Shown: piece by piece, positions 21,914 to 43,473 of the stretch
How positions within the stretch are numbered: position 1 is the first letter of the stretch
Layout: each line of letters begins with the position of its first letter
Assembly: GCA_024280855.1 (NCBI GenBank)
Contig: JAJRPG010000105.1
Coordinates: 1 to 61,924 of the forward strand
From: Planctomycetota bacterium
Lineage (GTDB): Bacteria; Planctomycetota; Phycisphaerae; UBA1845
Reading direction: 5' to 3'
Length of the DNA stretch: 61,924 nucleotides
Notes under the pieces: generated by a model
Told to the model about the DNA's origin: nothing
Database searches by the model: none
The model's input: only the letters and a program-made list of their open reading frames with translations
Position numbers and translations under genes: made by a program

Positions 21914-22902
21914 ATGACAAGTATTGAATCCAACAACGACAATGCCAAGCCAGCGGCATCTTTTGCCATAGGCGATCTTGTCTCGCTACTGCGTCCGCAT
22001 CAATGGGTGAAAAACATCATCATATTTGCCGGACCAGCAGCTAGCCTGAAGTTATCGTCACCGCAGTCGCTCTATCATGCGATGCTAGCCTTCGTGTCTT
22101 TCTGTTTAGCGGCTAGCTCGATTTACGCTATTAACGATGCCATCGACCGAAATGCCGATGCGTTACATCCGACCAAACGCTTTCGCCCCATTGCTCGAGG
22201 CGCGATTTCTCCCGCGACGGCCTATGCCCTCGCCGCCGTACTTATCTCCACGGCTTTGCTCATCGCTACCACGTTTCTAAACGGAACGGTCACAGCTATC
22301 TTAGGAACCTACTTCGTTCTGATGATGGCCTATTCTTTAGCGTTAAAAAACCAGGCCTTGTTAGACGTCATCATTCTGGCCACTGGCTTTGTGCTGCGTG
22401 CCTGGGCGGGTGCGGCTTCAGTAGATGTCGTTGCGTCGCAATGGCTAATCGGCTGTGTATTCACGCTCTGCCTCTTTTTTGGTTTTGGAAAAGGCAATGC
22501 GAACTCTCCATGCTAGGCGACGAAGAGACAGCCGCGAAGCACCGGCCGACGCTAATCCGTTACACACCGCGATTGCTTAGCCATCTTCTAACCACTTCCG
22601 CAGCCGTTGCGGTCATGACTTTCCTAATCTACACCATGGAACCCGGACGCGTCGCAACCCCGTTCCATAAAGAACATTTATTCTACACCTTGCCCATCGT
22701 GATCTACGGTATTTTCCGTTACACCATGTGCGCCGAATTGGGCAAGTTCGCCGGGCCTACGGAAATCCTGCTCAAAGATAAAATGATGATCGCCAGCATT
22801 GTACTTTGGCTATCCATCGCGATGTTTATCGCTTATCACGATCCTATCGTAACAGCCATGGGGCTGGAAAGACTAACCTGGGATCCGATTCCCCAGCCGT
22901 GA
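21914..22902 (+). pseudogene. UbiA-type polyprenyl-phosphate transferase, interrupted by a frameshift
   Basis: The first frame (21914-22516) gives a membrane protein with LRPHQWVKNI and the motif NDAIDRNADALHPTKRFRPIA, the Asp-rich site of the decaprenyl-phosphate phosphoribosyltransferase-like branch of UbiA. It then runs from FGFGK into a stop. The -1 frame continues the same family as KRQCELSMLGDEE and further helices to 22902. The break is at GGAAAAGG (22487-22494); one extra A would restore a single protein of about 330 residues. The cause could be a real deletion, a sequencing error or ribosomal slippage on the A-run. If functional, it would transfer a phospho-sugar to a polyprenyl phosphate and supply a lipid-linked donor for the GT-C enzymes nearby. 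Confidence 0.8.
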
Positions 22903-24411: not shown

Positions 24412-25632
24412 TTAACGTTGGCTAATAGTCTCGATCATGCCCGATTGCACAATCGTATCAGCTACACTCACCGCCACTTGTCTGGCACCTTCTGGCGTAT
24501 AATGCACGTCATCCACAAAGTACTTCAAACTCTTTTCAACACCAGATTCCGCATCCGCAAGCCAAGTGTTTTTCTCATCCGCAATGCCCCGCGTGATGGC
24601 GTGAATTTCCTTCATCGCCCGCCGTAGTGACTGCCCCGTGGGATATTCCTGATGGAAATAATCGTGACGCACCAGGCTAAAGTACTTCCCAAACTTCAGA
24701 CGTCGCAACTCCTCAATAGGCATTTCATCTTTGAAAATCGATGGCTGCAATACCAGAACGACGTGCGGTGTATCTCGCTTTACCAGCTCAACCAGCGTAC
24801 TTAGATGTTCCTCATATGCAGGCAAGGACAAGTAACGAGTCAATGGATAATCCATTTCTTTCACGCGCTTCGCATAATACCAACGCTTAGCAGCCCGTGC
24901 GAAAAACCCTCGCAGCGCAACCATTTCATAAGGCTCAGGACGAGCGGCCCCCATAGCTGGGCCGTAATAATGCGACCACAATTCATCGTATTCGCCCATT
25001 CCAAAACGACCCGGCGTAAACGATCGACACACGTCATTAATCGCGTGCATAATGACCACGACATCAGGCTCCCACCGCCGACAATACGTCACATAATTGA
25101 TAAGCGAATGCTTCGTCGTGTAGTATTCCTTACCCGCATTAAGCACTTCGATGGTCGTATCTGGATAACGTTCGTCGAGAAATTTCTTCACGAAAGTTGG
25201 ATACTGGTCCTCATCCCGCGCCTTGCCCCATTGCGTAGTCGAACCGCCAAGAAATAATATCCGCACCGTACCCGCAGCCTTCTCTTTTAGCACGTCATCA
25301 AAACGAGGCGGCGGATTTTGTAAAAAAGGATCAAAGGGGTGTACCTGCGAATAGTAATAATGAACCGCACACACCGCGTACAACATCGCTAGCACGCCCG
25401 CGATAGGAACCAACATAAACATCATTCGCTTTACAAACACAAAGCGACGAGCCATCGCAGGTAATAATGGAATCACAAACGGAATAGCCATCAACGCCAG
25501 AAACAGGTAGTAGCCACGATTGAGTGGCGCGGGCACTACCGTCTCAGGCTGATACCAAATCCAGCCTGCATATACCGCAGCATAAGCTCCCACATACAGC
25601 AAATACATTAACCATGATAACGCAATTGGCAT
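24412..25632 (-). CDS. Membrane-anchored SGNH/GDSL hydrolase
   Basis: 406 residues: three hydrophobic helices within the first 95 residues, then a periplasmic SGNH domain. FLGGSTTQWG carries the nucleophile Ser131, HAIND is block III, and DDVHYTPEG carries Asp374 and His377. SGNH proteins in glycan loci act as O-acyltransferases or as acyl-esterases. It lies downstream of the FkbH-like and acyl-carrier genes, separated from the carrier gene by a strong hairpin. It is one of three SGNH proteins in this cluster served by a single MBOAT. Transfer versus removal of acyl groups cannot be told from the motifs. Confidence 0.82.
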   Translation of the reverse strand: MPIALSWLMYLLYVGAYAAVYAGWIWYQPETVVPAPLNRGYYLFLALMAIPFVIPLLPAMARRFVFVKRMMFMLVPIAGVLAMLYAVCAVHYYYSQVHPFDPFLQNPPPRFDDVLKEKAAGTVRILFLGGSTTQWGKARDEDQYPTFVKKFLDERYPDTTIEVLNAGKEYYTTKHSLINYVTYCRRWEPDVVVIMHAINDVCRSFTPGRFGMGEYDELWSHYYGPAMGAARPEPYEMVALRGFFARAAKRWYYAKRVKEMDYPLTRYLSLPAYEEHLSTLVELVKRDTPHVVLVLQPSIFKDEMPIEELRRLKFGKYFSLVRHDYFHQEYPTGQSLRRAMKEIHAITRGIADEKNTWLADAESGVEKSLKYFVDDVHYTPEGARQVAVSVADTIVQSGMIETISQR

Positions 25633-25809: not shown

Positions 25810-26052
25810 CTAATTCACCTTAGAAGCAATCAACTCAATCATAGCTCCCACATCAGCAAGCCCGGCTACTTCCCCCGTGTTAAACCGAACTTCAAACGTC
25901 TGCTCGAGCGCAACAAGCAACTGTATATGCGTCAACGAATCCCAATCCAAAACATCCTTGGCTGTGGTTTCTGAACGAACGACCAAATCAGGTTCATCAA
26001 AAACCTCGCGAAAGGTCTCAGTTAATTTTTCCCATATCGCTTCTTGATTCAT
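25810..26052 (-). CDS. Acyl carrier protein
   Basis: 80 acidic residues with the carrier signature DWDSLTHIQL; Ser39 is the 4'-phosphopantetheine attachment site. Length and helix pattern are those of stand-alone ACPs. Stand-alone ACPs next to FkbH-like proteins accept a glyceryl or related acyl group from the HAD-IIIC enzyme, as known for methoxymalonate and tetronate pathways. Here the adjacent MBOAT, shuttle-like microprotein and SGNH genes suggest that the carrier delivers its acyl group to the membrane, as DltC does for D-alanine. It follows the FkbH-like gene by 87 bases. Confidence 0.9.
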   Translation of the reverse strand: MNQEAIWEKLTETFREVFDEPDLVVRSETTAKDVLDWDSLTHIQLLVALEQTFEVRFNTGEVAGLADVGAMIELIASKVN

Positions 26053-26139: not shown

Positions 26140-27990
26140 TTAATAATCGTCCACTATCGCAATCGGTGCCGAAAATGGATCATAATTTTCGATAGCTAAT
26201 CCAAACTTCTTACCGCCGTCGTGCATGTCGCCAGCGTCCTGAAAACCTAGCGTAGGATAAAGATTTTTCACCAGCCCATTTTTAGGCGTAGGCAAATACA
26301 TTCCCTGAAGACTTACCGCCCCTCGAGACCGTGCCATATCCACCACATGATTCAGCAATAGCATCTCAACATTTCGTTTCAATACGCGGCAGCTCATGAG
26401 CCAAAGTTCAATCTCAATAACTTCGTCAACATGCTTACCAATCAGTACTGAGATCAATCCGTTATCGCCAAACCGGTCAGCCAACCGCACATATACCGTC
26501 ACATAACTATCGTCGTTCATAATGGCTTCAACTTGAGACCGAGTCAGTCGCAGCGTCGTCAAGTTGAATTGATTACTCTTATTGATAAGTTGCGTAATAC
26601 GCTCAATGTGTTTTTTTTCAAACGGACGAATCACAGCTCGTTGGTCTAAGGATTTCAAATAATCCTGATAGTCCCCTGCTGACTCTTGAAGTTGGCTGCG
26701 CTCAGCATTCTGTTGATACTGCTGCGTTCGTGCTTGATCTTCAGCGCTGATCGACATAACTTCAAAACAGCCTGCGTCATCTAAAATCCTGGGATAATCA
26801 GCAGGGTCATCGGATAGCTCAACGACCCGCACCTCCGGCCATCGCTGTCGAACGTGTTCGCGCTCCGCAGGATTGTCATCCACAAAAACCATCACGCTTA
26901 ATCCGATATTAAGTTGCGAAGCGATAGCTGCGATATTGTCGGGCTTAGGCTCCCAATTAGCGACAAAGGCAACGAAATCATCTCGCTTGAGAACCATATC
27001 CGACAATTCTTGAAAGGGTGCTAACGCATTCGCCTCTTCATTTTTACTACACACCGCAAGCATGACGCCCCGCTGTTTGAGTTTTAGTACATATTCCTGA
27101 AAAGCCTTGAACGCTTCACCGACGGCATCCCCTTCGCCGATACGAATCCCCTCAACCCCATCATCACCAACGACTCCGCCCCAAAGCGTGTTATCCAAAT
27201 CCAATACCAAACACTTGGCCGAACATCCAAACAACGCACCAACCATGCGCGCCAGATTGCGAACGTAGGGTATCAGACAATCAAACGACACCGGCTGTTT
27301 AGCATGAAACCAATATCGCGGATCAAACCAGTTACGCACACCATACTGATTAGCCAATTGCGCAACATCGTTGATATGCACATACGCAGGCGATTTTTCA
27401 CCCAAACGAAGATTCACGCGTGCCAAAAACTGGCTCGACTCCCAAGGCGTCTTCGCAGCGAGATTCCCCATAGGTCGTGTTGGCATGGCATGGAAGTTGT
27501 CAAGGATAATTTCGCAAGATGTTTGTTTATGAAGTCGCGCACAAAGGTTAAGCCAATAATCAGCCACCTCATCAACCGTGTGATTCACAGCATTTACATC
27601 GTCCCCCGACTTAGGCCAGCGTGGAATATTCGCCGCAGTCACCATCAACAACGCCACATCCGGCTTAAACGCTATCGTCTCACTCGTAGGGTCCAAAATT
27701 TCCTGAACAAACGTGTTGTATTCGCTGCATTGAAGAACAACATCCAATCCCTGCGACTCAATGAGTAACCGCAAAGGATCTTCCAACAGCTCTGTTGACG
27801 CCCCACCAAGAACCGCTATCCGCACCACGCGGCGCGAACCAGGCCGTTGACCAACATCACCCAACTTTTTTCTTAAGCGACACAAGCTTGTCAGTGACGG
27901 GTAATCTGACACCGTATCAGCCAGCGCCATGAGACGCGACCACGCGGATACATAATCTTTAGCCTTGATAGATGCTTTTAATTGTTGCAT
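26140..27990 (-). CDS. FkbH-like HAD-IIIC protein with SGNH-like and GNAT-like parts
   Basis: 616 residues in the usual FkbH layout. An N-terminal SGNH-like region begins around IAVLGGASTELL. A HAD domain carries CLVLDLDNTLWGGVVGDDG (Asp residues near 257-259), NWEPKPDN and VFVDDNPAEREHV. A GNAT-like C-terminal domain (about 450-600) contains NKSNQFNLTTLR. FkbH enzymes take D-1,3-bisphosphoglycerate and load a glyceryl group on a carrier protein. The gene lies directly upstream of the ACP gene and downstream of SDR, MaoC, SGNH and MBOAT genes, so it is the likely loader of the acylation cassette. Whether the group is glyceryl or another short hydroxyacyl is inference. Confidence 0.9.
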   Translation of the reverse strand: MQQLKASIKAKDYVSAWSRLMALADTVSDYPSLTSLCRLRKKLGDVGQRPGSRRVVRIAVLGGASTELLEDPLRLLIESQGLDVVLQCSEYNTFVQEILDPTSETIAFKPDVALLMVTAANIPRWPKSGDDVNAVNHTVDEVADYWLNLCARLHKQTSCEIILDNFHAMPTRPMGNLAAKTPWESSQFLARVNLRLGEKSPAYVHINDVAQLANQYGVRNWFDPRYWFHAKQPVSFDCLIPYVRNLARMVGALFGCSAKCLVLDLDNTLWGGVVGDDGVEGIRIGEGDAVGEAFKAFQEYVLKLKQRGVMLAVCSKNEEANALAPFQELSDMVLKRDDFVAFVANWEPKPDNIAAIASQLNIGLSVMVFVDDNPAEREHVRQRWPEVRVVELSDDPADYPRILDDAGCFEVMSISAEDQARTQQYQQNAERSQLQESAGDYQDYLKSLDQRAVIRPFEKKHIERITQLINKSNQFNLTTLRLTRSQVEAIMNDDSYVTVYVRLADRFGDNGLISVLIGKHVDEVIEIELWLMSCRVLKRNVEMLLLNHVVDMARSRGAVSLQGMYLPTPKNGLVKNLYPTLGFQDAGDMHDGGKKFGLAIENYDPFSAPIAIVDDY

Positions 27991-28040: not shown

Positions 28041-28781
28041 TCACATCACCGCCCCCGCTGTTATGGGCAGATTGCATCCCGTTATCTCATGCCCATCTTG
28101 AGAGGTAAACCAAATAATTGCCTTAGCTACTACCACCGGGTCAATCCACGCCTCGCCAGGAAGCGATTCACGCATCTGATCCAGCATCAGAGACGGCAAA
28201 TCTTTCAGCAGACCAGTATTCATTGCCCCCGGCGATATCGTGTTCGCCGTAATTCCGCGTCCCACATATTCCGCAGCCAGGCTTTTCATATATCCCGCCA
28301 GCGCATACTTCGCCGCAGTATAAGCCGCGAAACCCCGTGGCGGAGTCCCCATCACAACCGACGACAGCACCGCAATGATTTGTCCGCGCCCGTGTTTTGA
28401 CATGCGCTTGAGCAAAGGCTGCGTTAATTGCACGATGGTTTTTAGGGAGCCATCCATCTGCCTCTGATATTCATCCCACTTCACCCGCTGAATAGGCTGA
28501 ATATCCATAGCACTAGCCGCGAGGTGGACAATGGCATCCGGACAAAATTCAGCGCCAAGCGTATCTAGTAATTTTGTTACTTGCGAAGCGTCAGCTAGGT
28601 CACAGGCGTGAACCACAAGGCCATCTTTTTCACCAAGCCATGCGTCCTGCAACTCTTTAACTCGGCTATCTTCTCTACGACAAATCCCCACAACCTGCCA
28701 GCCAGCTTCGCCCGCGAGCTTGGTCAATGCTTGACCCACCCCACCAGCGACACCAGATATTAACATCGTTGATTTATTCAT
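28041..28781 (-). CDS. Short-chain dehydrogenase/reductase, FabG-like
   Basis: About 246 residues. GVAGGVGQALT is the NAD(P)-binding turn, VHLAASA the family block, AVLSSVV the catalytic Ser region and YTAAKYALAG the Tyr-x3-Lys pair; ISPGAMNT follows. The set is complete, so an active oxidoreductase is expected. Next to MaoC, FkbH and ACP genes it most likely acts on a carrier-bound or CoA-bound acyl group (3-keto/3-hydroxy interconversion), but a sugar substrate is not excluded. ATG at 28781 (or 28784) overlaps the end of the MaoC gene by 8 to 11 bases, so translation is coupled. Confidence 0.85.
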   Translation of the reverse strand: MNKSTMLISGVAGGVGQALTKLAGEAGWQVVGICRREDSRVKELQDAWLGEKDGLVVHACDLADASQVTKLLDTLGAEFCPDAIVHLAASAMDIQPIQRVKWDEYQRQMDGSLKTIVQLTQPLLKRMSKHGRGQIIAVLSSVVMGTPPRGFAAYTAAKYALAGYMKSLAAEYVGRGITANTISPGAMNTGLLKDLPSLMLDQMRESLPGEAWIDPVVVAKAIIWFTSQDGHEITGCNLPITAGAVM

Positions 28782-29202
28782 CATCGCTCTCAACACGAAC
28801 CGTAGCCGACCCTCTTGCACGCACTTCTTCGCCGCAAGTGACAGACATTTTCATCATCACCACGCCCTGCGACGGATGAATACTTTTCACACTACCACTC
28901 ACAACGACCGTATCTCCAGGATATGTCGGCGCTACAAAATCCATTTTCAAGCTCAGCAGAAAACTCCGTCGCCCAGGTAGATGCACGCCAATCAACTGCG
29001 AAACCAAGGCCGCTAACAACGCGCCATGCACTACCCGGTCACGATGCCCTTGCGACTTTGCAAAATCAGCATCCACATGCAAAGGATTTGCATCCCCCGA
29101 CAATCGGGCAAACGCGTCAACATCCGCGGCTTCAACGCACCGCTCGAAACTAGCCGAGCTGCCAACCGTCAACGTATCTAATGTCCATTCACCAATCGCC
29201 AT
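28774..29202 (-). CDS. MaoC-like (R)-specific enoyl hydratase/hot-dog protein
   Basis: 142 residues with the MaoC hot-dog pattern FARLSGDANPLHVD, FAKSQGHRDRVVHG and GALLAALVSQLIG; the Asp and His of the hydratase motif are present. MaoC-like enzymes hydrate or dehydrate acyl chains bound to CoA or ACP, giving (R)-3-hydroxyacyl groups. A GAGG sequence lies about 9 bases upstream of the ATG. Pairing with the SDR gene that overlaps its 3' end suggests a two-step conversion of the acyl group used by the neighbouring carrier and MBOAT. The acyl chain itself is unknown. Confidence 0.86.
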   Translation of the reverse strand: MAIGEWTLDTLTVGSSASFERCVEAADVDAFARLSGDANPLHVDADFAKSQGHRDRVVHGALLAALVSQLIGVHLPGRRSFLLSLKMDFVAPTYPGDTVVVSGSVKSIHPSQGVVMMKMSVTCGEEVRARGSATVRVESDDE

Positions 29203-29276: not shown

Positions 29277-30431
29277 TTACTTAGATGAAAACACGTCCTC
29301 ATCTTCCAAAAACGCTATCACCTTAGTCGTCACACGCTGCGCCCCCGCCAACGTCGCATGACCCACATCATAATACTCACTCGCCTCAAGCATATTCCGC
29401 AGGTCAAGATATGGTGTATCGCCGATCGCCTGCTGAATTATATCCTGATAACGCTCGTATCTTCCGGGATAATAACCCGCACGATTCATCGGATGCTCAG
29501 GCAGGTTTACGACATACAACTCGATGCCCAATCGATCAACAACAGCTAACAACCGAGCCAACCGACCTCTAATCATTTCCGCAGCATCATCAGGCTGCCA
29601 TTGATGCACTTCATACCAAAACGAAGACGTCGCGTTCATCCACTCCGCCATCGCCTCTTGCCGCATAGGCCGAAGATTATGATATTTATAAGGCATCGTA
29701 TAAATGCGAAGCTTTCGATCCACACGATCTAACATGCCTTGAGGCTTATATTGATAACTCATCCACGCAGTCGAAAAATTTTCTTTATCAGCTTCCTCGT
29801 TATGATTATTTCTTGAAACAGGAGACCACCGCAGCGCCTGACCAATCAAGCCAGCCTTAAAACGTTTCTGCTGTTTCATCAAGAACCGACCGCGCGAAGC
29901 CATACTCTGAGCCAATGACTTCGACTCAAGTGTAGGGCCGTCCTCACCATCAACCACTGTAAACTCAGCACTATACCGATTTATCGCAGCTACCAACGGC
30001 GAACTGTTTTCTGGGATGTTCGCCACAAATCGAGCCGTAAGTCCCAGCACCATCACTTTCGGCATCGCCTCTTGGCCAAACGCTCGCTCGACATATTCCA
30101 GCGTTAGCAAAAAGTCATCCATCGTGCCCAGACTCAGCGCTCCTTGATAAGCCTGCAACTTCGGAAAACGCTCATCAAAATCCTCGGCTAACAAATCCTC
30201 CCGCGCTTCACTAGGCCCGACCAACCACAAACGCTCTTTCTCGCCGGGCGTAAAAATACTCGGTAGCATATATCGCAACACGTCCTCATCACGCCAGGGA
30301 TAAACCTCTAGCTGACGCTCAACATTCCCAGCGATAGCCATCAAGCCGACGTTGATACCAAGGTACAATACCAATACCACGCCCACAGCTATCGAAACTT
30401 GGTTAAGTTTTTTAGAATCCCGTATAAACAA
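29277..30431 (-). CDS. DltD/AlgX-like SGNH acyltransferase candidate
   Basis: 384 residues: one membrane helix at about 12-33, then a periplasmic domain. LWLVGPSEARED places a candidate nucleophile Ser at 74 in a GxSxxR context, and YYDVGHATLAG near the C-terminus gives Asp355 and His358, the D-x2-H of SGNH acyltransferases such as DltD and AlgX/AlgJ. The start appears to be TTG at 30431, inside the coding region of the microprotein; a later start would remove the anchor. It directly follows the MBOAT and microprotein genes, as DltD follows DltB. It probably receives the acyl group and transfers it to the polymer. Confidence 0.8.
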   Translation of the reverse strand: MFIRDSKKLNQVSIAVGVVLVLYLGINVGLMAIAGNVERQLEVYPWRDEDVLRYMLPSIFTPGEKERLWLVGPSEAREDLLAEDFDERFPKLQAYQGALSLGTMDDFLLTLEYVERAFGQEAMPKVMVLGLTARFVANIPENSSPLVAAINRYSAEFTVVDGEDGPTLESKSLAQSMASRGRFLMKQQKRFKAGLIGQALRWSPVSRNNHNEEADKENFSTAWMSYQYKPQGMLDRVDRKLRIYTMPYKYHNLRPMRQEAMAEWMNATSSFWYEVHQWQPDDAAEMIRGRLARLLAVVDRLGIELYVVNLPEHPMNRAGYYPGRYERYQDIIQQAIGDTPYLDLRNMLEASEYYDVGHATLAGAQRVTTKVIAFLEDEDVFSSK

Positions 30432-30516
30432 AATCTAATTCCGTAGCCGCGAATAAAATCAACACCAATAGCAGCGCCGTTGCGGCTACCAATCGCCATA
30501 TCATAGACTTATTCAT
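30412..30516 (-). CDS. 34-residue single-helix microprotein with a DltX-like C-terminal Tyr motif
   Basis: The ATG at 30516 overlaps the MBOAT stop as ATGA, and the TAA at 30412 lies inside the next gene, so it is coupled on both sides. Residues 1-8 carry Lys3 and Arg8, residues 9-24 form one hydrophobic helix, and the last ten residues are outside by the positive-inside rule. The chain ends in F-V-Y-T-G-F (29-34), an F-x-Y-x2-F hexapeptide. In the Dlt pathway the MBOAT DltB acylates the Tyr of such a C-terminal hexapeptide on the microprotein DltX, which passes the group to Ser of DltD. Position, topology and motif all match. The function is inferred by analogy. Confidence 0.82.
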   Translation of the reverse strand: MNKSMIWRLVAATALLLVLILFAATELDFVYTGF

Positions 30517-31727
30517 AGGCCCAACAATCTCGCAAACACGCGCATCGCCAAACCAGCGTCTAATCGAAAAAACACCAATGACAATGCGACTGCAGTCAAT
30601 GTCGCAACAACGCTCAGCAGATGTACCATGCGCCTCTGCCGCCACTTCCGCAGCCAAGGCTTCCCAAATCGTTTCGCCGCTAAAGATTCCCACGTCCTAA
30701 ATACCACAAACAATAGCCCATGCACCAATCCGAACAGTAGAAAACTAATCGTCGTACCGTGCCATAAACCTGACACTACCATCGTAAGTAGCAGCGCCGC
30801 ATTCATAGCTAGCAGCGGCCGCGCACCAAAAAATGAGGATGTCAACGCCTTCTTATAAACCGGCGTAAACACATAATTCGTCAGCCATTGCGTGAGCGAG
30901 CGATGAAACCGGAACCAAAAGTCTGAGATATTTCGGGCTAGGAACGGCTTATCAAAATTCTCTGGCGGACGAATCCCCATCAAACTCCCCAGCCCAATCA
31001 CCACATCACAGTATCCTGCGAAATTAAAATACAGAAAAAAGTAAAACGCATACACTCGCCCCATAAGCGTCAGCCGGGAGACCGTCAAAAGATCAGCCGA
31101 ATCTAAAAGCGCATACGCCCCAAGTCGATCAGCAATCACATACGCCTTAACTAATCCAACCAACACGCGCAATACCGCATCAATATGCGCCGTCATTGTC
31201 GGCGCAATCGCTTGCTCACGTCCCGACCATTGAACCGCGTAATCCTGATACCGCTGAATCGGCCCCATCATGAATGTCGTAAAGTTCAGCGAATAATTAC
31301 TATATGTAAGAAAATCGATCGGACCAAGCGTACCGCTGCTTGCCTCAATCATCACATGAACAATTTTGAAAAACAAAAAGCTCAGGCCAACGGTCGCAAA
31401 TTGGTTATGCGAAATCGCGTTCGCAGGAAGCACCCAGCCAAGAAAATCGTAGTTGCGCAAATAGACAAAAAATAATATATAAACCGTTAACCCGACGGGA
31501 AGCGACAGCCGCGAGCCTCGCAAAATCCACTGCACCAAGACGTAGCCAAAAATAATAAACAGCACGGTAGACACCGCACCTTCAGGAGACAGCAACATGC
31601 CACCGACAAACAACACATTCGCAGCTAAGAAAACTAACTGACGAGCAGCGCCACCCAGCACAGCCAGGCACAGCGCCGACGCAATCGCCAGGCCAAGAAA
31701 CGACGGTGACATAAGCGAAAAGGGCAT
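30513..31727 (-). CDS. MBOAT-family O-acyltransferase (AlgI/DltB-like)
   Basis: 404 residues with about ten membrane helices. Landmarks are NFDKPFLARNISDFWFRFHRSL and SGLWHGTTISFLLFGLVHG; His323 in LWHG is the catalytic His of MBOAT enzymes. AlgI and DltB move an acyl group from a cytoplasmic donor across the membrane. Some MBOATs carry a C-terminal Tyr hexapeptide themselves; this one ends in VFARLLGL without it, which fits a separate shuttle peptide encoded just downstream. It begins 3 bases after the esterase stop and overlaps the microprotein start by 4 bases. Confidence 0.92.
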   Translation of the reverse strand: MPFSLMSPSFLGLAIASALCLAVLGGAARQLVFLAANVLFVGGMLLSPEGAVSTVLFIIFGYVLVQWILRGSRLSLPVGLTVYILFFVYLRNYDFLGWVLPANAISHNQFATVGLSFLFFKIVHVMIEASSGTLGPIDFLTYSNYSLNFTTFMMGPIQRYQDYAVQWSGREQAIAPTMTAHIDAVLRVLVGLVKAYVIADRLGAYALLDSADLLTVSRLTLMGRVYAFYFFLYFNFAGYCDVVIGLGSLMGIRPPENFDKPFLARNISDFWFRFHRSLTQWLTNYVFTPVYKKALTSSFFGARPLLAMNAALLLTMVVSGLWHGTTISFLLFGLVHGLLFVVFRTWESLAAKRFGKPWLRKWRQRRMVHLLSVVATLTAVALSLVFFRLDAGLAMRVFARLLGL

Positions 31728-36388: not shown

Positions 36389-38488
36389 CTAATCACCAAG
36401 ATAGCCTAGCGAACGAAGCTTACGCAATTCATCCACGCTAAACGAATCATCATCATCGTTGCCCCGCGAAACATAATCCGGCTGCAACGCCCACTGCTGC
36501 TCAAGTAATTCCAAAAGCTTCTTACCAATCTCTGGTTCTTTATCCAAAATGTTCGTAGCCTCGTCTGGATCATACGGTAAATCGTAAAGCTGATGATTCC
36601 CATCAGAAGACCACACAAACTTATACTGATCCGTTCTTACGCATCGCAGGTGTGAAGTGAAATCAGCCGTATCTTTTTTAAGCCCCACAACACCAGCCAT
36701 GCGTTCAAGATGGCCATAATACGGATGCACCTGCGAAAAAGTTTGGTCACGCGCCTCAAACTGCGCAGGCACTAAAGTTCGTCCCGGCAAATCGCTCATA
36801 GATGTTCCATGCCCCAGGACATTCAAAATTGTAGGTACAATGTCGACAGTCTGGCACATCCCCTTCACACGAGTCCCAGCCGGGAACTGCTTAGGATATC
36901 GAACAATTAATGGCACATGGATCAGATGATCGTTCACCGCAAACACATGATCCCACCGGCCAGCTTCGCCAAGATTTTCGCCATGATCCGCCGTGACAAT
37001 CAGCAACGTATCGTCAAGGTCTACCCTCTCTGCAATCAAATCCAACACATGTTGAAGCTCGTGATCTTGATAAGCCACGCTCCCCGCATACATCGCCCGA
37101 ACACAATCGGCATCACACGTCGAATGCGACGCCCCAGCCAACCAATGCGGACCATAAAATCGCCCCGACGCCCGCGTCGCAGAAACATACCCCGCGCAAG
37201 ATGGCAAGTGTTTCTGCCGCCATTTCATCGGAGGATACAAAGGCCAATGCGCTTCCATCAAATTGATAAACAAAAAGAACGGTTTTTCATCATCATACTT
37301 ATCTTCAAACCATTCCTGAAGCACTTGTCCCGTCTCAATCACACCATGATCAGCCCACTTCGACGGCGCACCTAACTTCATCAACACATCATGAAACGCC
37401 GAACCGCGAACCCTGTCCCAAGTTTCCAAATGATCGGTAAAACCTTGCAATTGGTTACTGTTTTTCAGATACACATTACCCGCTAGAGAAACAGTTTGAT
37501 AACCTGACGCCCCCAGCATTTCAGCCAGGGTTAAAAATCCGCCATCCAACCAGCGATGATGCTCGAAACTACAGCCATGCGTCTTGGGATACAAACCTGT
37601 AAATAGCGAGGCATGAGACGGAACCGTCCACGGCGACGTGCTTATCATATCTTCGTACACGACGCCTTCGCTTGCGAGCTTATCAACAACGGGCGTCAAA
37701 CCTCGATCATCGCCATAACAACCAAAGTGATCGCGCCGCGTGGTATCCAGAACCACCATGACGATATTGGGCGATTGTTTTTCTTCGCCCTGAATTCTAG
37801 ATGTCTTGCTATCTTCGACTTTGGCGAAACTAGACCAAGCCGGTGAAGCTGTGCCCAGAAATTGTACAGCTATCAGCACGACGACTTGAACACCGGCCAC
37901 AGCCAAGCATTTCTTTAATGACTGCCGCTGAGCAAAGTATACAACAGCTAGTGTGACGGCGATGGCCCCCATTCGTGTCAATGCGCCTTGCGAAGCTAGC
38001 CCATAAGCAACGATAAGAGGAACCAACCACGCCCCCGCAGCTACGATAGCCACGCCCCGCTTGAGTACGGCTGCGCCGCGCGAATCATTGAACCGGTACA
38101 TCGTCCACGCCAACAGCCAGGGTACGGGAACCGTGGCTAGTAATTGCCTGCCGGTCATTATTTTGAAAAACACAATTTGTGCAGCCAACCCGCAGGCCAC
38201 AGCCACCAACGCAGCCAGGCTGGGCTTTGGATTTATAAATCTAGCCAGAAAAACCATGACCGCAAAAGCGGGTAAACCAAGCAATGCCCCAAACCCCGCG
38301 AACCAAAGCACCAGTTGCGAAGCTTCCGAAGCTGGCATGGCGTTTTGATGAACCAGCAAATCAACGCATAGAAAAAACGCCCCGTACACGCCCCCCACAC
38401 CAACACCAGCCAGTACCGCATCTACCATACAAATTGGCTGCGTACTGCTTTGTATTCCTTGACTAGGTGCGCTTTCCGAAGCGTTCAT
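36389..38488 (-). CDS. Membrane sulfatase-family (alkaline phosphatase superfamily) protein, Thr nucleophile
   Basis: 699 residues. The first 215 hold about six membrane helices; the rest is a sulfatase-fold domain with NIVMVVLDTTRRDHFGCYG (metal Asp), SPWTVPSHASLFTG and VTADHGENLGE. Classical sulfatases need Cys or Ser in C/S-x-P-x-R to make formylglycine; here the position is Thr288 and the Arg is His. That, with the N-terminal helices, recalls LtaS and EptA-type phospho-group transferases. It ends in LGYLGD like the two paralogues upstream. It overlaps the GT-C gene by 4 bases. Phosphotransferase versus phosphodiesterase or sulfatase action is open. Confidence 0.84.
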   Translation of the reverse strand: MNASESAPSQGIQSSTQPICMVDAVLAGVGVGGVYGAFFLCVDLLVHQNAMPASEASQLVLWFAGFGALLGLPAFAVMVFLARFINPKPSLAALVAVACGLAAQIVFFKIMTGRQLLATVPVPWLLAWTMYRFNDSRGAAVLKRGVAIVAAGAWLVPLIVAYGLASQGALTRMGAIAVTLAVVYFAQRQSLKKCLAVAGVQVVVLIAVQFLGTASPAWSSFAKVEDSKTSRIQGEEKQSPNIVMVVLDTTRRDHFGCYGDDRGLTPVVDKLASEGVVYEDMISTSPWTVPSHASLFTGLYPKTHGCSFEHHRWLDGGFLTLAEMLGASGYQTVSLAGNVYLKNSNQLQGFTDHLETWDRVRGSAFHDVLMKLGAPSKWADHGVIETGQVLQEWFEDKYDDEKPFFLFINLMEAHWPLYPPMKWRQKHLPSCAGYVSATRASGRFYGPHWLAGASHSTCDADCVRAMYAGSVAYQDHELQHVLDLIAERVDLDDTLLIVTADHGENLGEAGRWDHVFAVNDHLIHVPLIVRYPKQFPAGTRVKGMCQTVDIVPTILNVLGHGTSMSDLPGRTLVPAQFEARDQTFSQVHPYYGHLERMAGVVGLKKDTADFTSHLRCVRTDQYKFVWSSDGNHQLYDLPYDPDEATNILDKEPEIGKKLLELLEQQWALQPDYVSRGNDDDDSFSVDELRKLRSLGYLGD

Positions 38489-40098
38489 GATTTTTTCCGA
38501 TAAAAAGTGAAATATTGAAACGGGCCAGCGTCGCTAAGGCGAACCGATTGCAATTTGTAAGTTTCATGAAACGCCGGAGTCGCCCAAATCTCATGCTCAG
38601 AGCGTAGACACAAATCACGCTCTATATCTTCTTCACTCATCGGCTCGCGACCTACCGCGACATTCCCCAACAAAATAAACTCTGGCTTCTTCGATAAAAC
38701 ATACGCCCCGTCACCCTTTTCGTGACCGGCTCGGCCTTTACCAGGTTTTTTTGTCGGTACACGGGCGATGTGCTGATCGGTCAAACCCAACATATCAATC
38801 ACGCTGCGATTAGAAAAATACGAGATAGCCCCAGCCGGTGTCGAAGCGATGACATCATCTTCCTCAGAATTCTCCGCCAGCCACCTGCCCGCAGCCGAGC
38901 ATCGCTCTATAAAATAATTATCAAAGTGATGATACGGCGCGATGGCTTTATTAGCATATCTCAGCACATGATTCGACTGCTGCGTACCCAGCCCAGCCGT
39001 CAGCAATACAACAGCAGTTAGCGCGATGCGCAACTTTAGCCAAGAGACCTCTTGAGAATGCGCCTTCGCCCAGGACATAATCTCATACAATCCAGTGGCT
39101 GCCAACATGTAGAGAACGGGCATGATATATCCAAAGAATCGAAAGAAAGCCAGACCGTCACCACCGACTTGAATGATGTAAGCGAACCAACCAAGCGCAA
39201 TCAATATGCCGCCGCGTACCCAAGGCGCAGCGTCACGCTTGATCCAGGAAAACGCGATAAGCGTCATCCATAATGCGCCGCCATATAGCGAGAGAAAATG
39301 TTTGGTATAGCGAAGGCCGCGCATATACAAATCAAAGCTGCCGCCGACTTTGGCGTAATAAGTATTGGGTAATGGATAGCCATAATACCACATGCGCCAG
39401 CCAATATAGGGTACGAGCACAGAGAAAAATACGCCGCACCAGATAATAGATCGCCGGTTTATTGGTGATTCACCTCGTTTTATATGCTCGAAAATTCTAA
39501 CGACACTAAATAATGCGAACCATACAAAACCATCGCCGCGCACCAGCGATAATAGCGCAATTGGAATAACCGAACCTAACGCACCCTGGCCTGTGCGGAA
39601 TTCTTTGTCGTGCATAACTAATGCGAGAAAAATCAAGAAGGCATAAACGGTGCTGGCTAACCCGCCTGTTGACCATGCACAAAAAGACGAATTACAGGCT
39701 AACATCAACGGACCAGCCAACCACAACCAAGGCGATGCCTTAAAACTACGCCGTGCGAAAATGAACATCAACGCCAGAGTCAAAACGCCAAACGCTAATG
39801 AAATCGCTTGAGCCACGACGAGTAAATCAACACTAGGAATGATCCGTGCAATAATCCCCAAAGATAAAACCCATAGGAAATTTGTGTACCCCTCAACGCG
39901 GTCTCCCACGTTGTAGACTAAGCCATGCCCTTCAGCAAAATTATGCGCATAACGCAGAGAGATATAAGCGTCATCTACTACATAGCCGATGCTTAGCGCA
40001 TGCCATAGATAAAGGCCAACTATGGCTACAAAACCCAACGCAACAATGGCGCTTGGCTTTTGAGATTCACCGGCAGTTAAAGAGGGACTATGGCTCAT
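38485..40098 (-). CDS. GT-C membrane glycosyltransferase
   Basis: About 537 residues with ten or more membrane helices. The N-terminal loop reads VVDDAYISLRYAHNF and VEGYTNFLWVLSLG, a pattern seen in GT-C mannosyl/arabinosyltransferase-like proteins, with the acidic pair as the probable catalytic centre. The last 130 residues form a soluble domain with SNRSVIDMLGLTDQHIA. ATG at 40098 overlaps the stop of the SGNH gene as ATGA; an upstream TTG at 40116 is less likely. The 3' end overlaps the sulfatase-family gene in the same way, so the three genes are translationally coupled. Confidence 0.82.
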   Translation of the reverse strand: MSHSPSLTAGESQKPSAIVALGFVAIVGLYLWHALSIGYVVDDAYISLRYAHNFAEGHGLVYNVGDRVEGYTNFLWVLSLGIIARIIPSVDLLVVAQAISLAFGVLTLALMFIFARRSFKASPWLWLAGPLMLACNSSFCAWSTGGLASTVYAFLIFLALVMHDKEFRTGQGALGSVIPIALLSLVRGDGFVWFALFSVVRIFEHIKRGESPINRRSIIWCGVFFSVLVPYIGWRMWYYGYPLPNTYYAKVGGSFDLYMRGLRYTKHFLSLYGGALWMTLIAFSWIKRDAAPWVRGGILIALGWFAYIIQVGGDGLAFFRFFGYIMPVLYMLAATGLYEIMSWAKAHSQEVSWLKLRIALTAVVLLTAGLGTQQSNHVLRYANKAIAPYHHFDNYFIERCSAAGRWLAENSEEDDVIASTPAGAISYFSNRSVIDMLGLTDQHIARVPTKKPGKGRAGHEKGDGAYVLSKKPEFILLGNVAVGREPMSEEDIERDLCLRSEHEIWATPAFHETYKLQSVRLSDAGPFQYFTFYRKKS

Positions 40099-41303
40099 GG
40101 CGCGGGCTGTAACCAATTATTATCTCGAATGAAATGTTCGATTTCTTTTGCGGCGACTGCATTCCCTTTTGCGTTCCAATGGCCATCGTCCAGGAAATAT
40201 ACAAGCTGCCCCGTCGCGGCTTTCGTGTGCAGTGCATCGGTGAGATTAAGAAAAGCAATGTCGTTATCGAGTGCCCAGTGAGAAATTCGGTTAATCATAC
40301 TCGATGGCGACCACGTCGAGGCCTTGGACCCTGGCTTAAAAGTACATAAATCATGGTATACGCGATACTTGATCGGCGCGAACGCGACCAGGAATTTAAT
40401 GCCACGCTGCCGACATGCCAGTGAAGCTTTGGCGATCACATCAAGCCCACGATTTATGGACGCTTCATCTTTTGTACTTAGTTTCGCAGCGTTATAACCA
40501 AAGTACATTCGACCGCCTTCGAGCTGGCCGGGCATCGCCAGTACGCCAGACCGCTCCAACCCAAACCGTTGATCGCGCCTCGTCGGTAAAACTATGCGAG
40601 AAAGTCGAACATAAACATTTCGCAAGAAACTTCGTTTACGAAATCCGTGCATCTTCGAGACGAACTGATCCCAATCTTTCGTATAACGTTCGTATCGAAG
40701 TAAATCGCGGGTTAAATCATTCCCTTCAAATATCAACCAAACAACAATTTTCGTATCCACTGAAAAACCATATCGCTGCAGCGCGACAAGCTCCTGCTGC
40801 GGGCCATATGCAGATTGGCCAAGGTTAAGCACCCGACAATCCAGCGAGGCCGCTAACAATTCGCTCGCCATATTTTTCTTCAAAATTATCGGGGCTTCCA
40901 CGAACGAATCACCCACGAGTACCATATCCGCAGATGTCATATCCGTGTCATTGCGAAACCCGTGCCAATCATATTCAACTTTTACAGGATAGGTTGTTCC
41001 TGTAGGCAATCCATACCAGGTGGCAAGGTCACCGCGAATCTCACCTTCAAACGCCCCGTGTGATTGATGCACATGAATCAGCTCCGGGTCAAGTCGATTC
41101 CTCGGATTCTCCCACGCCCGCCCACCTGGCGCAGATAGCACGAGGCGGTAATCAACCAGATTAGCCAAAGCCAAGGCTTCCAAAAACAAAATGAACAGCA
41201 ACACCGAAAGACTTGCTGCGCATAACCTAAAAGCCCATTTACGCCTCGTCGTAACTTCGCCGACAACTTGCTCACTTTCAGAAATATTTGCGTCACTGGC
41301 CAT
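40095..41303 (-). CDS. AlgX/AlgJ-like SGNH protein with one N-terminal anchor
   Basis: 402 residues: a helix at about 25-48, then a periplasmic SGNH domain. MVLVGDSFVEAP places the nucleophile Ser at 133, FEGNDL is the Asn block, and DDGHWNAKG gives Asp372 and His375; the D-x2-H-W/L-N form is that of alginate acetyltransferase-like proteins. No second MBOAT lies beside it, so it may take acyl groups from the MBOAT at 30513 or act as an esterase. It sits between a sulfatase-family gene and a GT-C gene and overlaps the latter by 4 bases. Confidence 0.82.
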   Translation of the reverse strand: MASDANISESEQVVGEVTTRRKWAFRLCAASLSVLLFILFLEALALANLVDYRLVLSAPGGRAWENPRNRLDPELIHVHQSHGAFEGEIRGDLATWYGLPTGTTYPVKVEYDWHGFRNDTDMTSADMVLVGDSFVEAPIILKKNMASELLAASLDCRVLNLGQSAYGPQQELVALQRYGFSVDTKIVVWLIFEGNDLTRDLLRYERYTKDWDQFVSKMHGFRKRSFLRNVYVRLSRIVLPTRRDQRFGLERSGVLAMPGQLEGGRMYFGYNAAKLSTKDEASINRGLDVIAKASLACRQRGIKFLVAFAPIKYRVYHDLCTFKPGSKASTWSPSSMINRISHWALDNDIAFLNLTDALHTKAATGQLVYFLDDGHWNAKGNAVAAKEIEHFIRDNNWLQPAP

Positions 41304-41356: not shown

Positions 41357-43435
41357 TCAGTCGCCGATATAGCCAATGCTTTTAAGCATTTCGATGGAAT
41401 GCTGGTCCAGCGGTTTATCGTCCAACACTTCCGAATGCTTGTAATCCGGTTGCTGACGCCACCAAGCCCATAACCGCTCATCAAGCTGCTTGGCGATTTC
41501 AGGCTCCTGCATAATGACATTAAACGCTTCGTCCTTATCAAGCTTAATGTCATACAAAACATGATGACCATCTGACGACCAAATGTATTTGTAATCCTGA
41601 TTTCTTATCACGCGAAGGTGTGCCGTCCACGAAGCGAGCGCAGCCTGACGCCCCAATGACCCCATAGAAGTCCGAAGTCCCCAGTGGTTTGGCCACCATT
41701 GAGCATATATGTCCTTGGTCGGCTTGAACGATGCAGGAACAATCGAGCTTCCTGGCAACTGTTCGATCGGACAGTCCACTTCCAACACATCAAAAATTGT
41801 TGGGACTAAATCAGTCAACTGACACAAGCCCGGCACACGTTTAGCCGCTGGAAATTGTTTCGGATATCGAATCATCAGAGGCACATGCAACAAATAATCG
41901 TTGACCGCAAATAAATGGCCCCAGCGTTTCGCTTCACCAAGATTATCGCCGTGGTCTGACGTGATGATGACCATCGTCTCATCGAGATCAACCTGCCGGG
42001 AAAGCATTTCAAGCATTTGGCCAATCTGTTCGTCCTGATAGGCAACTTCCGCCGCGTACATGGCTCGAACCAATTCAATTTTCTTTGGATCATCCTCCTG
42101 TCGTGCATGCCAGGCTAGCCCATCGTATTCTTTCGCACCCAAACGAGCGACTTCGAGATGACTTCGCCCTGGCGGAAGATGAGCATGCAGATACTTAAAG
42201 GGAGGCTGATGACGCTGATGAGGCTCCATGACATTCACAAACAGGAAAAATGGATTGTTCGGATCGTATTTATTTTGAAACCAATCTCCAAGCTCAATAA
42301 CCGACGCGGCTGACCCCTTGTCCATCCAACGGGCGGGAAAGCCAAGCTGCTGTAATAACGGTGTAAGAATAAGTGAACCATTCAATTTTGGGCGGCGCAA
42401 AAATCGATGATAATCAAAGCCTTGATCGAAATTTGCCGTTTCAATCGTCACATTCGCCGTAATAGATACTGTTTGAAACCCTTGGTCCTTCAACATTTCA
42501 GGAAGTGTCAACAACGCGTCATCCAGCCATAAATGATCTTCTGAAGAAGCGCCATGCGTTTTCGGATAATACCCCGTAAACATCGACCCATGTGATGGAA
42601 CCGTCCACGGCGCGGTCGAAAAAGCCTCTTCGTATAACGTGCTTTCAGATGCAAAGCGATCCAAATTCGGGGTCAACCCGCCGTCATGTCCGTAAGCGCC
42701 CAAATAATCGCGTCTTAGTGTATCTATAACGATTAGCACCACATTGGGATGTCCATTGCCTCTTCGAATAGCCAATGATTCAGGGACATTTCGCATAGGT
42801 TGATTGAACGTCTGAAACGACCAGGCAACCATAACTAGAAAACTTACAGCACATGTCACGGTGACTGCCGTAGCCATTTGCTGACACATGCGTCTTCCCA
42901 ACGTGAGCCAAACACCAACCAAAGCTAACGACATAACGCCCACGAGCATCGAACTTTGAGGTAGACATCCAGACACGCGAGCGATACTGAGCGTCATCGC
43001 GGCACAAGCCAGCAGGAACCACCAGGCGATGGAGGTTCGCCAACTAACGCTTAGCCAACCTCTTGTGATAACCAGCGCCGTCAACACGGCAGCGGGGACG
43101 CTGATAATTGTCACCATTCGCCCGCAAACAATCAATGCAAAAAAGCATAACCCCATCCCCGCCATCAACGCGAGCATATGCCGCATCGACATCGGCCATC
43201 TGGCGAGGCGTTGTATGCAAATTGCACTAATGGCAAGTACGATTCCGAATCCGCCGCCCAGGGCCATATAAAAAATCATGGCGACTATTACAAAATCTAC
43301 CTGGAGAAGTGGCGCTCGAAACATGACATCGTAAGCACCAGCCACGATTCCCATAGCTCCGCCCAGCATCAGGCCAGCTAGAACGGTTGGCCAGAACGTC
43401 GCGGTCGATTCTGAATTGGTTATTTTACGATTCAT
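41357..43435 (-). CDS. Membrane sulfatase-family protein, Thr nucleophile, paralogue 2
   Basis: About 692 residues, closely similar along its length to the product of 43474-45558 and more distantly to 36389-38488. N-terminal membrane helices cover about 200 residues. The catalytic domain has NVVLIVIDTLRRDYLGAYG, APWTVPSHGSMFTG with Thr at about 278, and ITSDHGDNLGEAKRWGH. Thr in place of Cys/Ser and His in place of Arg argue against a formylglycine sulfatase. The C-terminus is LKSIGYIGD. ATG at 43435 is preferred to TTG at 43441. The pair probably arose by tandem duplication. Confidence 0.84.
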   Translation of the reverse strand: MNRKITNSESTATFWPTVLAGLMLGGAMGIVAGAYDVMFRAPLLQVDFVIVAMIFYMALGGGFGIVLAISAICIQRLARWPMSMRHMLALMAGMGLCFFALIVCGRMVTIISVPAAVLTALVITRGWLSVSWRTSIAWWFLLACAAMTLSIARVSGCLPQSSMLVGVMSLALVGVWLTLGRRMCQQMATAVTVTCAVSFLVMVAWSFQTFNQPMRNVPESLAIRRGNGHPNVVLIVIDTLRRDYLGAYGHDGGLTPNLDRFASESTLYEEAFSTAPWTVPSHGSMFTGYYPKTHGASSEDHLWLDDALLTLPEMLKDQGFQTVSITANVTIETANFDQGFDYHRFLRRPKLNGSLILTPLLQQLGFPARWMDKGSAASVIELGDWFQNKYDPNNPFFLFVNVMEPHQRHQPPFKYLHAHLPPGRSHLEVARLGAKEYDGLAWHARQEDDPKKIELVRAMYAAEVAYQDEQIGQMLEMLSRQVDLDETMVIITSDHGDNLGEAKRWGHLFAVNDYLLHVPLMIRYPKQFPAAKRVPGLCQLTDLVPTIFDVLEVDCPIEQLPGSSIVPASFKPTKDIYAQWWPNHWGLRTSMGSLGRQAALASWTAHLRVIRNQDYKYIWSSDGHHVLYDIKLDKDEAFNVIMQEPEIAKQLDERLWAWWRQQPDYKHSEVLDDKPLDQHSIEMLKSIGYIGD

Positions 43436-43473
43436 TAGCAAAGATTAAATTGTACTACATAATTTCGCATGGG

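Follow-up and report, generated by a model that had tools for sequence, protein, structure and literature searches.

A predicted stand-alone acyl-shuttle microprotein beside a DltB-like MBOAT in a Gram-negative glycan locus

In the Dlt pathway, as described in PMC12148441, the MBOAT protein DltB moves D-Ala from the carrier protein DltC to a tyrosine of DltX, from which it passes to DltD; the carrier protein is also given as the acyl source of DltB in PMC11035591. Another MBOAT, PatA, uses acetyl-CoA as its acyl donor, and the tyrosine of its motif becomes acetylated, again according to PMC12148441. This 2025 paper states that MBOAT/SGNH pathways other than Dlt are without a DltX-like microprotein. 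Although Dlt is a Gram-positive pathway, Dlt genes are known in a few Gram-negatives, as noted in PMC5541007. In a separate context, a proposal for the tetromadurin pathway is that FkbH and an acyl carrier protein (ACP) together give rise to glyceryl-ACP (PMC7489565), and glyceryl groups are present on exopolysaccharides (PMC4432689).

We analyzed a stretch of 61,924 nucleotides from a Planctomycetota assembly (contig JAJRPG010000105.1; hereafter, the window), which contains a gene set that is Dlt-like in design and whose MBOAT is DltB-like. Five proposed roles are shared with the Dlt pathway: a loader, a carrier, a tail-less DltB-like MBOAT, a single-helix microprotein ending F-x-Y-x-x-F, and an SGNH protein. 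In contrast to the Gram-positive pathway, the named hosts here are assemblies labelled Planctomycetota, Binatia, and Gammaproteobacteria; the loader DltA scored above its cut-off in none of nine genomes, eight of which carry FkbH instead, and the loading enzyme is apparently different from that of Dlt. The shuttle gene comes after that of the MBOAT; dltX, by contrast, lies before dltA in the loci L053 and L065. The PatA/PatB and AlgI-type systems share the MBOAT-SGNH pair and the same terminal F-x-Y-x-x-F, but the motif is fused to the MBOAT there and sits on a separate peptide here. The FkbH-ACP glyceryl units of polyketide pathways likewise combine an FkbH-family protein with a stand-alone ACP; in the window, however, they stand in a glycan locus with an MBOAT, a microprotein, and an SGNH enzyme as partners, and no polyketide synthase domain was found among the part of the window ORFs that was scanned with Pfam.

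A membrane microprotein between the MBOAT and SGNH genes

The initial annotation had proposed a short DltX-like frame between an MBOAT gene and an SGNH gene. The features concerned are as follows.

30412..30516, minus strand: stand-alone acyl-shuttle microprotein (predicted), 34 aa, based on ORF translation, recurrence, and pN<pS
30415..30432, minus strand: codons of the hexapeptide F-V-Y-T-G-F, with the Tyr31 codon at 30424-30426
30513..31727, minus strand: DltB-like MBOAT acyltransferase, tail not fused, 404 aa (PF03062, E 4.6e-22)
29277..30431, minus strand: SGNH acyltransferase (predicted) with one N-terminal helix, based on an alignment of nine sequences and a structure model

The microprotein is read on the minus strand from 30516 to 30412 as 34 codons followed by a stop; its sequence is MNKSMIWRLVAATALLLVLILFAATELDFVYTGF and its C-terminus is D-F-V-Y-T-G-F. 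Frame 1 of the plus strand over the same interval contains stops. As annotated, the microprotein ATG lies inside the same ATGA as the MBOAT stop codon (TGA). The next gene was also said to begin within the last microprotein codons, and a possible start of the SGNH ORF, a TTG at 30431, does lie 20 nt inside the microprotein ORF. The window microprotein is not preceded by a Shine-Dalgarno-like 4-mer; such a 4-mer is present in five of nine loci, compared with 16% of random positions, which is a weak signal. A single hydrophobic 18-mer at residues 5-22 (mean Kyte-Doolittle 2.46) corresponds to the one membrane helix described earlier, with a net charge of +1 on its N-terminal side and -2 on its C-terminal side. 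These charges fit an N-in/C-out orientation, which would place the hexapeptide outside the membrane, as had been suggested.

The likeness to DltX, as first claimed, held for the architecture and did not extend to the sequence family. Three real DltX proteins used as controls match PF12459 at 8.6e-16 to 1.8e-20, whereas neither the window peptide nor its counterpart in the locus L061 gave a match at E<=1. For seven further microproteins (the scan covered these without L051), there was no PF12459 match at E<=10 and one weak OppC_N hit. Comparison of the microprotein profile with the three DltX sequences was not significant (prob 1.5), and a profile search with the microproteins against the PDB found nothing. 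An NCBIfam match of the window peptide to a caa3 oxidase subunit was sub-threshold (E 0.017, 15.9 bits vs 37.25). Because real DltX proteins match PF12459 and the window peptide does not, we regard the peptide as DltX-like in architecture only, that is, in its one helix and C-terminal F-x-Y-x-x-F.

Recurrence of and selection on the free frame

We gathered relatives by MBOAT similarity alone, and the microprotein was not used as a criterion. Among 60 related genomes, 43 had an MBOAT match at E<=0.001; two of these were window-type (G001, 83%; G011, 48%), the next was at 36%, and MBOATs at or below this low identity were excluded from the window-type set. Five loci came from one scan of named genome contigs. 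In the phylum, four of 392 genomes, one of them that of the window, had a match at E<=1e-60. The 369 genomes in the class of G453 gave one match, G453 itself, and the 297 genomes in the phylum of G454 gave two, G454 included. No relative of the window MBOAT was found in viral contigs. G001, G451, and L033 share the same contig and coordinates and were therefore counted as one genome. After removal of repeats, ten genomes remained: the window's, G001 (L033, L051), G011 (L005, L049), L034 (G452, L050), L035 (G453, L047), L036 (G454, L048), L037 (G433, L046), G442 (L044), G414 (L045), and G1031 (L061). The five relatives that carry labels are metagenome assemblies of Phycisphaerae, Planctomycetota, Gammaproteobacteria, Candidatus Binatia, and Candidatus Scalindua.

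As a result, a stand-alone ORF ending F-x-Y-x-x-F was identified in all ten genomes, beside an MBOAT without that tail, so that the recurrence anticipated for a short one-helix frame is borne out. In nine of the ten, the ORF encodes 34-40 aa, lies directly 3' of the tail-less MBOAT gene, and ends D-F-[VI]-Y-x-x-F. In the tenth, G1031, the gene order is MBOAT, SGNH-like ORF, and then the following shuttle-like ORF.

L061:2101-2238, plus strand: free shuttle-like ORF, 46 residues, ending P-F-V-Y-V-R-F, after the SGNH-like gene

The tail-less MBOAT of this genome is 31% identical to that of the window, and its N-terminus is cut by the contig end. The nine aligned microproteins share invariant D28, F29, Y31, and F34, and each contains a single hydrophobic 18-mer with a net positive N-terminal side; the C-terminal F-x-Y-x-x-F is found in all nine and in L061. 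In eight of the nine loci, the MBOAT stop overlaps the microprotein ATG, and in L050 the two frames are in phase, with the stop and three codons between them. Scanning the window and eight loci for the motif gave two further frames, one of 127 residues in L044 (FIYTIF) and one of nine residues in L046, both of which were treated as chance.

To evaluate coding constraint, we compared codon changes between loci. Between the window and L051, the 34 codons hold 10 synonymous and 9 non-synonymous differences (pS 0.405, pN 0.116). The other two frames, compared over the first 84 nt, gave pS of 0.256 and 0.135 and pN of 0.233 and 0.277, and show no such bias. Over the 27 codons before the hexapeptide, pN was below pS in 35 of the 36 pairs of the nine loci, and second codon positions varied least. 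These codon changes show purifying selection on the microprotein frame. Loss of the tyrosine or of the frame in related loci had been named as evidence against the annotation; instead, Tyr31 is invariant and the frame is constrained.

The hexapeptide itself could be shaped by the next gene, since the last codons of the microprotein overlap the SGNH frame in eight of nine loci with the start codons as chosen (in L045, the SGNH start may fall within or after the motif). The residues that the SGNH frame encodes across the motif are LFIRDS in the window, SYTRHF in L049, SSTPGF in L044, and TSCTVP in L045. Because these residues diverge while F-x-Y-x-x-F stays, conservation of the motif is not a by-product of the SGNH overlap. 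We conclude that the 34-residue ORF is real and most likely encodes a membrane microprotein.

Partner proteins and carrier genes

The best NCBIfam model for the window MBOAT was that of DltB (TIGR04091, E 1.5e-57), at a score below the equivalog cut-off (195.6 bits vs 375). A profile of the MBOAT from six relatives, searched against the PDB, found only DltB at E<=0.001, as two distinct sequences (6bug/8jem, E 6.7e-45), and aligned positions 16-387 of 403 to 6bug. Counted on this profile alignment, His323 is aligned to DltB His336, the active-site histidine according to PMC11035591. By sequence comparison, the window MBOAT is thus closest to DltB. Its structure model (pLDDT 64) was set aside as too poor.

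The C-terminus of the window MBOAT has no F-x-Y-x-x-F, in agreement with the initial annotation. The motif was fused in 27 of 32 other MBOATs, taken from loci that were fetched from relatives and plasmids and are neither window-type nor Dlt-type; the five exceptions are L014, L022, and L032, which are tail-less, L024, which is cut by a contig end, and L057, which ends FLYYRY. All 29 fetched loci related to the L061 MBOAT (of 45 matches besides G1031) had the fused motif, and so did the second MBOAT of the window genome, L001 (FIYFQF). That every tail-less MBOAT has a free shuttle is ruled out by L014, L022, and L032: searching 13 kb around each with a loose pattern gave a single frame, of 32 residues (L063, around L022), which lies on the opposite strand and lacks a hydrophobic helix.

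An unrooted phylogenetic tree was constructed with 44 MBOATs, without L024 and the N-terminal piece of L046, and with partial rows for L046 and L061. The nine MBOATs fell into one group (100/99), and the first row to join them was a fused-tail MBOAT from Tistrella mobilis plasmid pTM1 (98/95, long branch). This plasmid (L055:1-5470) resembles the window in bringing together homologues of the FkbH (35%; its gene is HAD-IIIC/FkbH), the ACP (41%), and the MBOAT (31%), but the motif is fused to its MBOAT (FIYAGF), and the 7 kb examined contained no separate shuttle-like ORF. It is possibly a carrier-fed system with a fused shuttle, and it rules out that a carrier donor forces the shuttle to be split. 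Because a fused-tail MBOAT accompanied by FkbH and ACP joins the nine first, the shuttle may have undergone fusion or fission within a carrier-fed group, although the long branches leave this uncertain. In the Candidatus Scalindua assembly (L046:8586-9799, plus strand), the MBOAT frame is broken in two and the microprotein and SGNH frames are open, representing either a decaying system or an assembly error.

The SGNH protein gave no confident Pfam family match. Ser74, Asp355, and His358 are invariant in the nine aligned sequences and correspond to a Ser-Asp-His triad. With an AlphaFold model of pLDDT 86.9, comparison by VIA ranked four DltD entries first (Z 13.4-14.4, 280-301 residues, rmsd 5.4-6.1), and Foldseek placed DltD chains at all of ranks 1-10, with TM-scores of only about 0.4-0.5. 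Since other SGNH enzymes came within about one Z unit of DltD over 161-192 residues, it is the extent of the alignment rather than Z that favours DltD, and the model suggests a DltD-like fold. Real DltD proteins match PF04914 (2e-125) and TIGR04092 (9e-145), whereas the window SGNH matches neither of these DltD models. The SGNH profile was not significantly similar to four DltD sequences (E 0.14) and gave weak, unrelated matches only in the PDB. In the absence of model matches and of significant profile comparisons, the peptide and the SGNH protein cannot be filed as DltX and DltD.

Downstream of the SGNH gene lie the proposed carrier genes and several accessory genes.

28774..29202, minus strand: MaoC-like dehydratase, accessory (PF01575)
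28041..28787, minus strand: short-chain dehydrogenase, accessory (PF13561)
26140..27990, minus strand: FkbH-family enzyme, proposed acyl loader in place of DltA (TIGR01686, E 2.8e-94)
25810..26052, minus strand: acyl carrier protein, 80 aa, with a D-S-L phosphopantetheine site (PF00550, E 1.5e-5, above cut-off)
24412..25632, minus strand: second membrane GDSL/SGNH protein, adjoining the ACP gene (PF13472)

The FkbH protein scores above the TIGR01686 cut-off (315.9 bits vs 146.65) and is the sole TIGR01686 match in the window's genome. Of the eight core genomes with an FkbH gene, seven have one TIGR01686 match; in the eighth, G011, two partial matches at contig ends resemble one split gene. All eight carry FkbH, or at minimum its N-terminal part, on the same contig as the MBOAT gene. 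In G011 and L034 (G452), FkbH runs to the contig end and the remainder is on another contig, and L034 has a second FkbH-like N-terminal fragment. An ACP homologue lies beside FkbH in all eight FkbH-bearing genomes, the window's included. The ninth core genome, that of Candidatus Scalindua, has the microprotein and the broken MBOAT frame, and no FkbH was found in it. The set stays together in two gene orders, MBOAT-microprotein-SGNH-FkbH-ACP in L044 and FkbH-ACP-MBOAT-microprotein-SGNH in L045. No DltA above the TIGR01734 cut-off was detected in any of the nine genomes, all of which gave weaker adenylation-domain matches; two of 14 control genomes scored above it. The FkbH and ACP genes suggest that, as in Dlt, the acyl donor is a carrier protein. 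The stand-alone shuttle proposed in the initial annotation is supported; these two genes of the pathway had been overlooked there.

Among the seven other loci searched, the MaoC-like and short-chain dehydrogenase genes of the window were found only in L051, its nearest relative. Homologues of the second GDSL/SGNH protein occur in L051 (85%) and, weakly, in L045 (25%); it may act in the pathway as an esterase or as a second transferase. The surrounding genes, which encode several glycosyltransferases, a sugar-phosphate transferase, a flippase-type protein, a deacetylase, and sulfatase-like proteins, support the view that this is a Gram-negative polysaccharide locus, as originally described. An AlgX-type SGNH acetyltransferase is encoded at 40095-41303 on the minus strand (PF16822, E 2.1e-14), adjoining a sulfatase-like protein at 41357-43441; positions 36389-38488 encode another sulfatase-like protein. 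These genes hint that the glycan locus contains more than one decoration system. Elsewhere in the window, a UbiA-family ORF at 21914-22516 on the plus strand has a possible, hydrophobic continuation at 22441-22902 in another frame, and the split (21914-22902) looks like a frameshift or a sequencing error.

A proposed acyl relay, its rivals, and its meaning

Taken as a whole, the locus is likely to encode a Dlt-like machine with a stand-alone acyl shuttle, in which an acyl group would pass from FkbH and the ACP to the MBOAT, to Tyr31, to the SGNH enzyme, and on to a surface glycan. FkbH, its function taken from its family, would make an acyl-ACP, most likely D-glyceryl-ACP. The DltB-like MBOAT, with His323, would pass the acyl group across the membrane to Tyr31 in the F-V-Y-T-G-F of the microprotein. 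The shuttle would then swing to the SGNH enzyme, which would take the acyl group on Ser74 and transfer it to the surface polysaccharide made by the surrounding genes. The peptide probably ferries a small acid group over the membrane for attachment to a sugar polymer at the surface, and the glycan of this locus is the likely target. We infer the acylation of the tyrosine, the glyceryl identity, the direction of transfer, and the target polymer; the glyceryl substrate is read from FkbH-family membership only, and by analogy glyceryl or a close derivative is proposed as the cargo. A further-reaching reading, which we put forward tentatively, is that of an envelope glycerylation machine built on the Dlt plan in Gram-negative phyla, with a free microprotein ferrying glyceryl on its terminal tyrosine.

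Among the alternatives, the one that survives best, although we consider it unlikely, is that the shuttle is real and its donor is acetyl-CoA or another CoA, as in PatA/AlgI-like systems, while FkbH and the ACP belong to a separate nearby pathway. The use of acetyl-CoA by PatA (PMC12148441), the MaoC and short-chain dehydrogenase genes that intervene in the window, and the Scalindua genome, which has a shuttle without FkbH, are in its favour. However, a single FkbH is found at this locus in eight of nine core genomes, with the ACP in eight of eight and in two gene orders, and the MBOAT resembles DltB, whose acyl group comes from a carrier protein (PMC11035591).

Short single-helix proteins are often assembly factors, and the microprotein could also be a structural or regulatory subunit of an MBOAT-SGNH complex whose tyrosine is not acylated. 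A regulatory role of DltX on DltB has been suggested in PMC11035591. This reading is improbable, as constraint peaks at the terminal F-x-Y-x-x-F, the element fused to most other MBOATs examined, and the tyrosine of the same motif is acetylated in PatA (PMC12148441).

A still smaller chance attaches to the stop/start overlap being a recoding site, at which a -1 shift or readthrough would give a fused MBOAT-tail protein. The ATG does overlap the MBOAT stop in eight of nine loci and the L050 frames are in phase, but the L061 shuttle is placed after the SGNH gene; the geometry also varies, with an other-frame overlap in eight loci and an in-phase, spaced arrangement in L050, so that no one recoding mechanism is shared by all of them. 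That the ORF is untranslated, its conservation stemming from the overlapping SGNH start or from translational coupling, is scarcely credible, for although its last codons overlap the SGNH frame in those eight loci (with the chosen start codons), 35 of 36 pairs show pN below pS in the codons ahead of the hexapeptide, where second positions vary least, the SGNH frame encodes different residues across the motif from locus to locus, and L061 has the motif downstream of its SGNH gene.

The preferred reading, a carrier-fed relay through a free shuttle, bears on what has been described so far. In the literature covered, with subscription papers outside its scope, there was no recognisable pairing of FkbH with an MBOAT-SGNH system; FkbH and MBOAT occur together in literature on cyanobacterial natural products. 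Nor was there a recognisable free shuttle outside Dlt, the 2023 paper on the mechanism of D-alanine transfer lying outside the scope. The envelope glycerylation machine, if true, is previously undescribed. In ten genomes, the locus looks like a counter-example to the statement on DltX-like microproteins in PMC12148441.

With this locus, split shuttles can be compared with fused ones in a natural setting, and a class of genes of 34-46 residues becomes findable beside tail-less MBOATs. The locus also hints at the enzyme that may place glyceryl-type groups on surface glycans. If the proposed reading is true, the free shuttle, found also after the SGNH gene in L061, would be a recurring module and not a peculiarity of teichoic acid alanylation.
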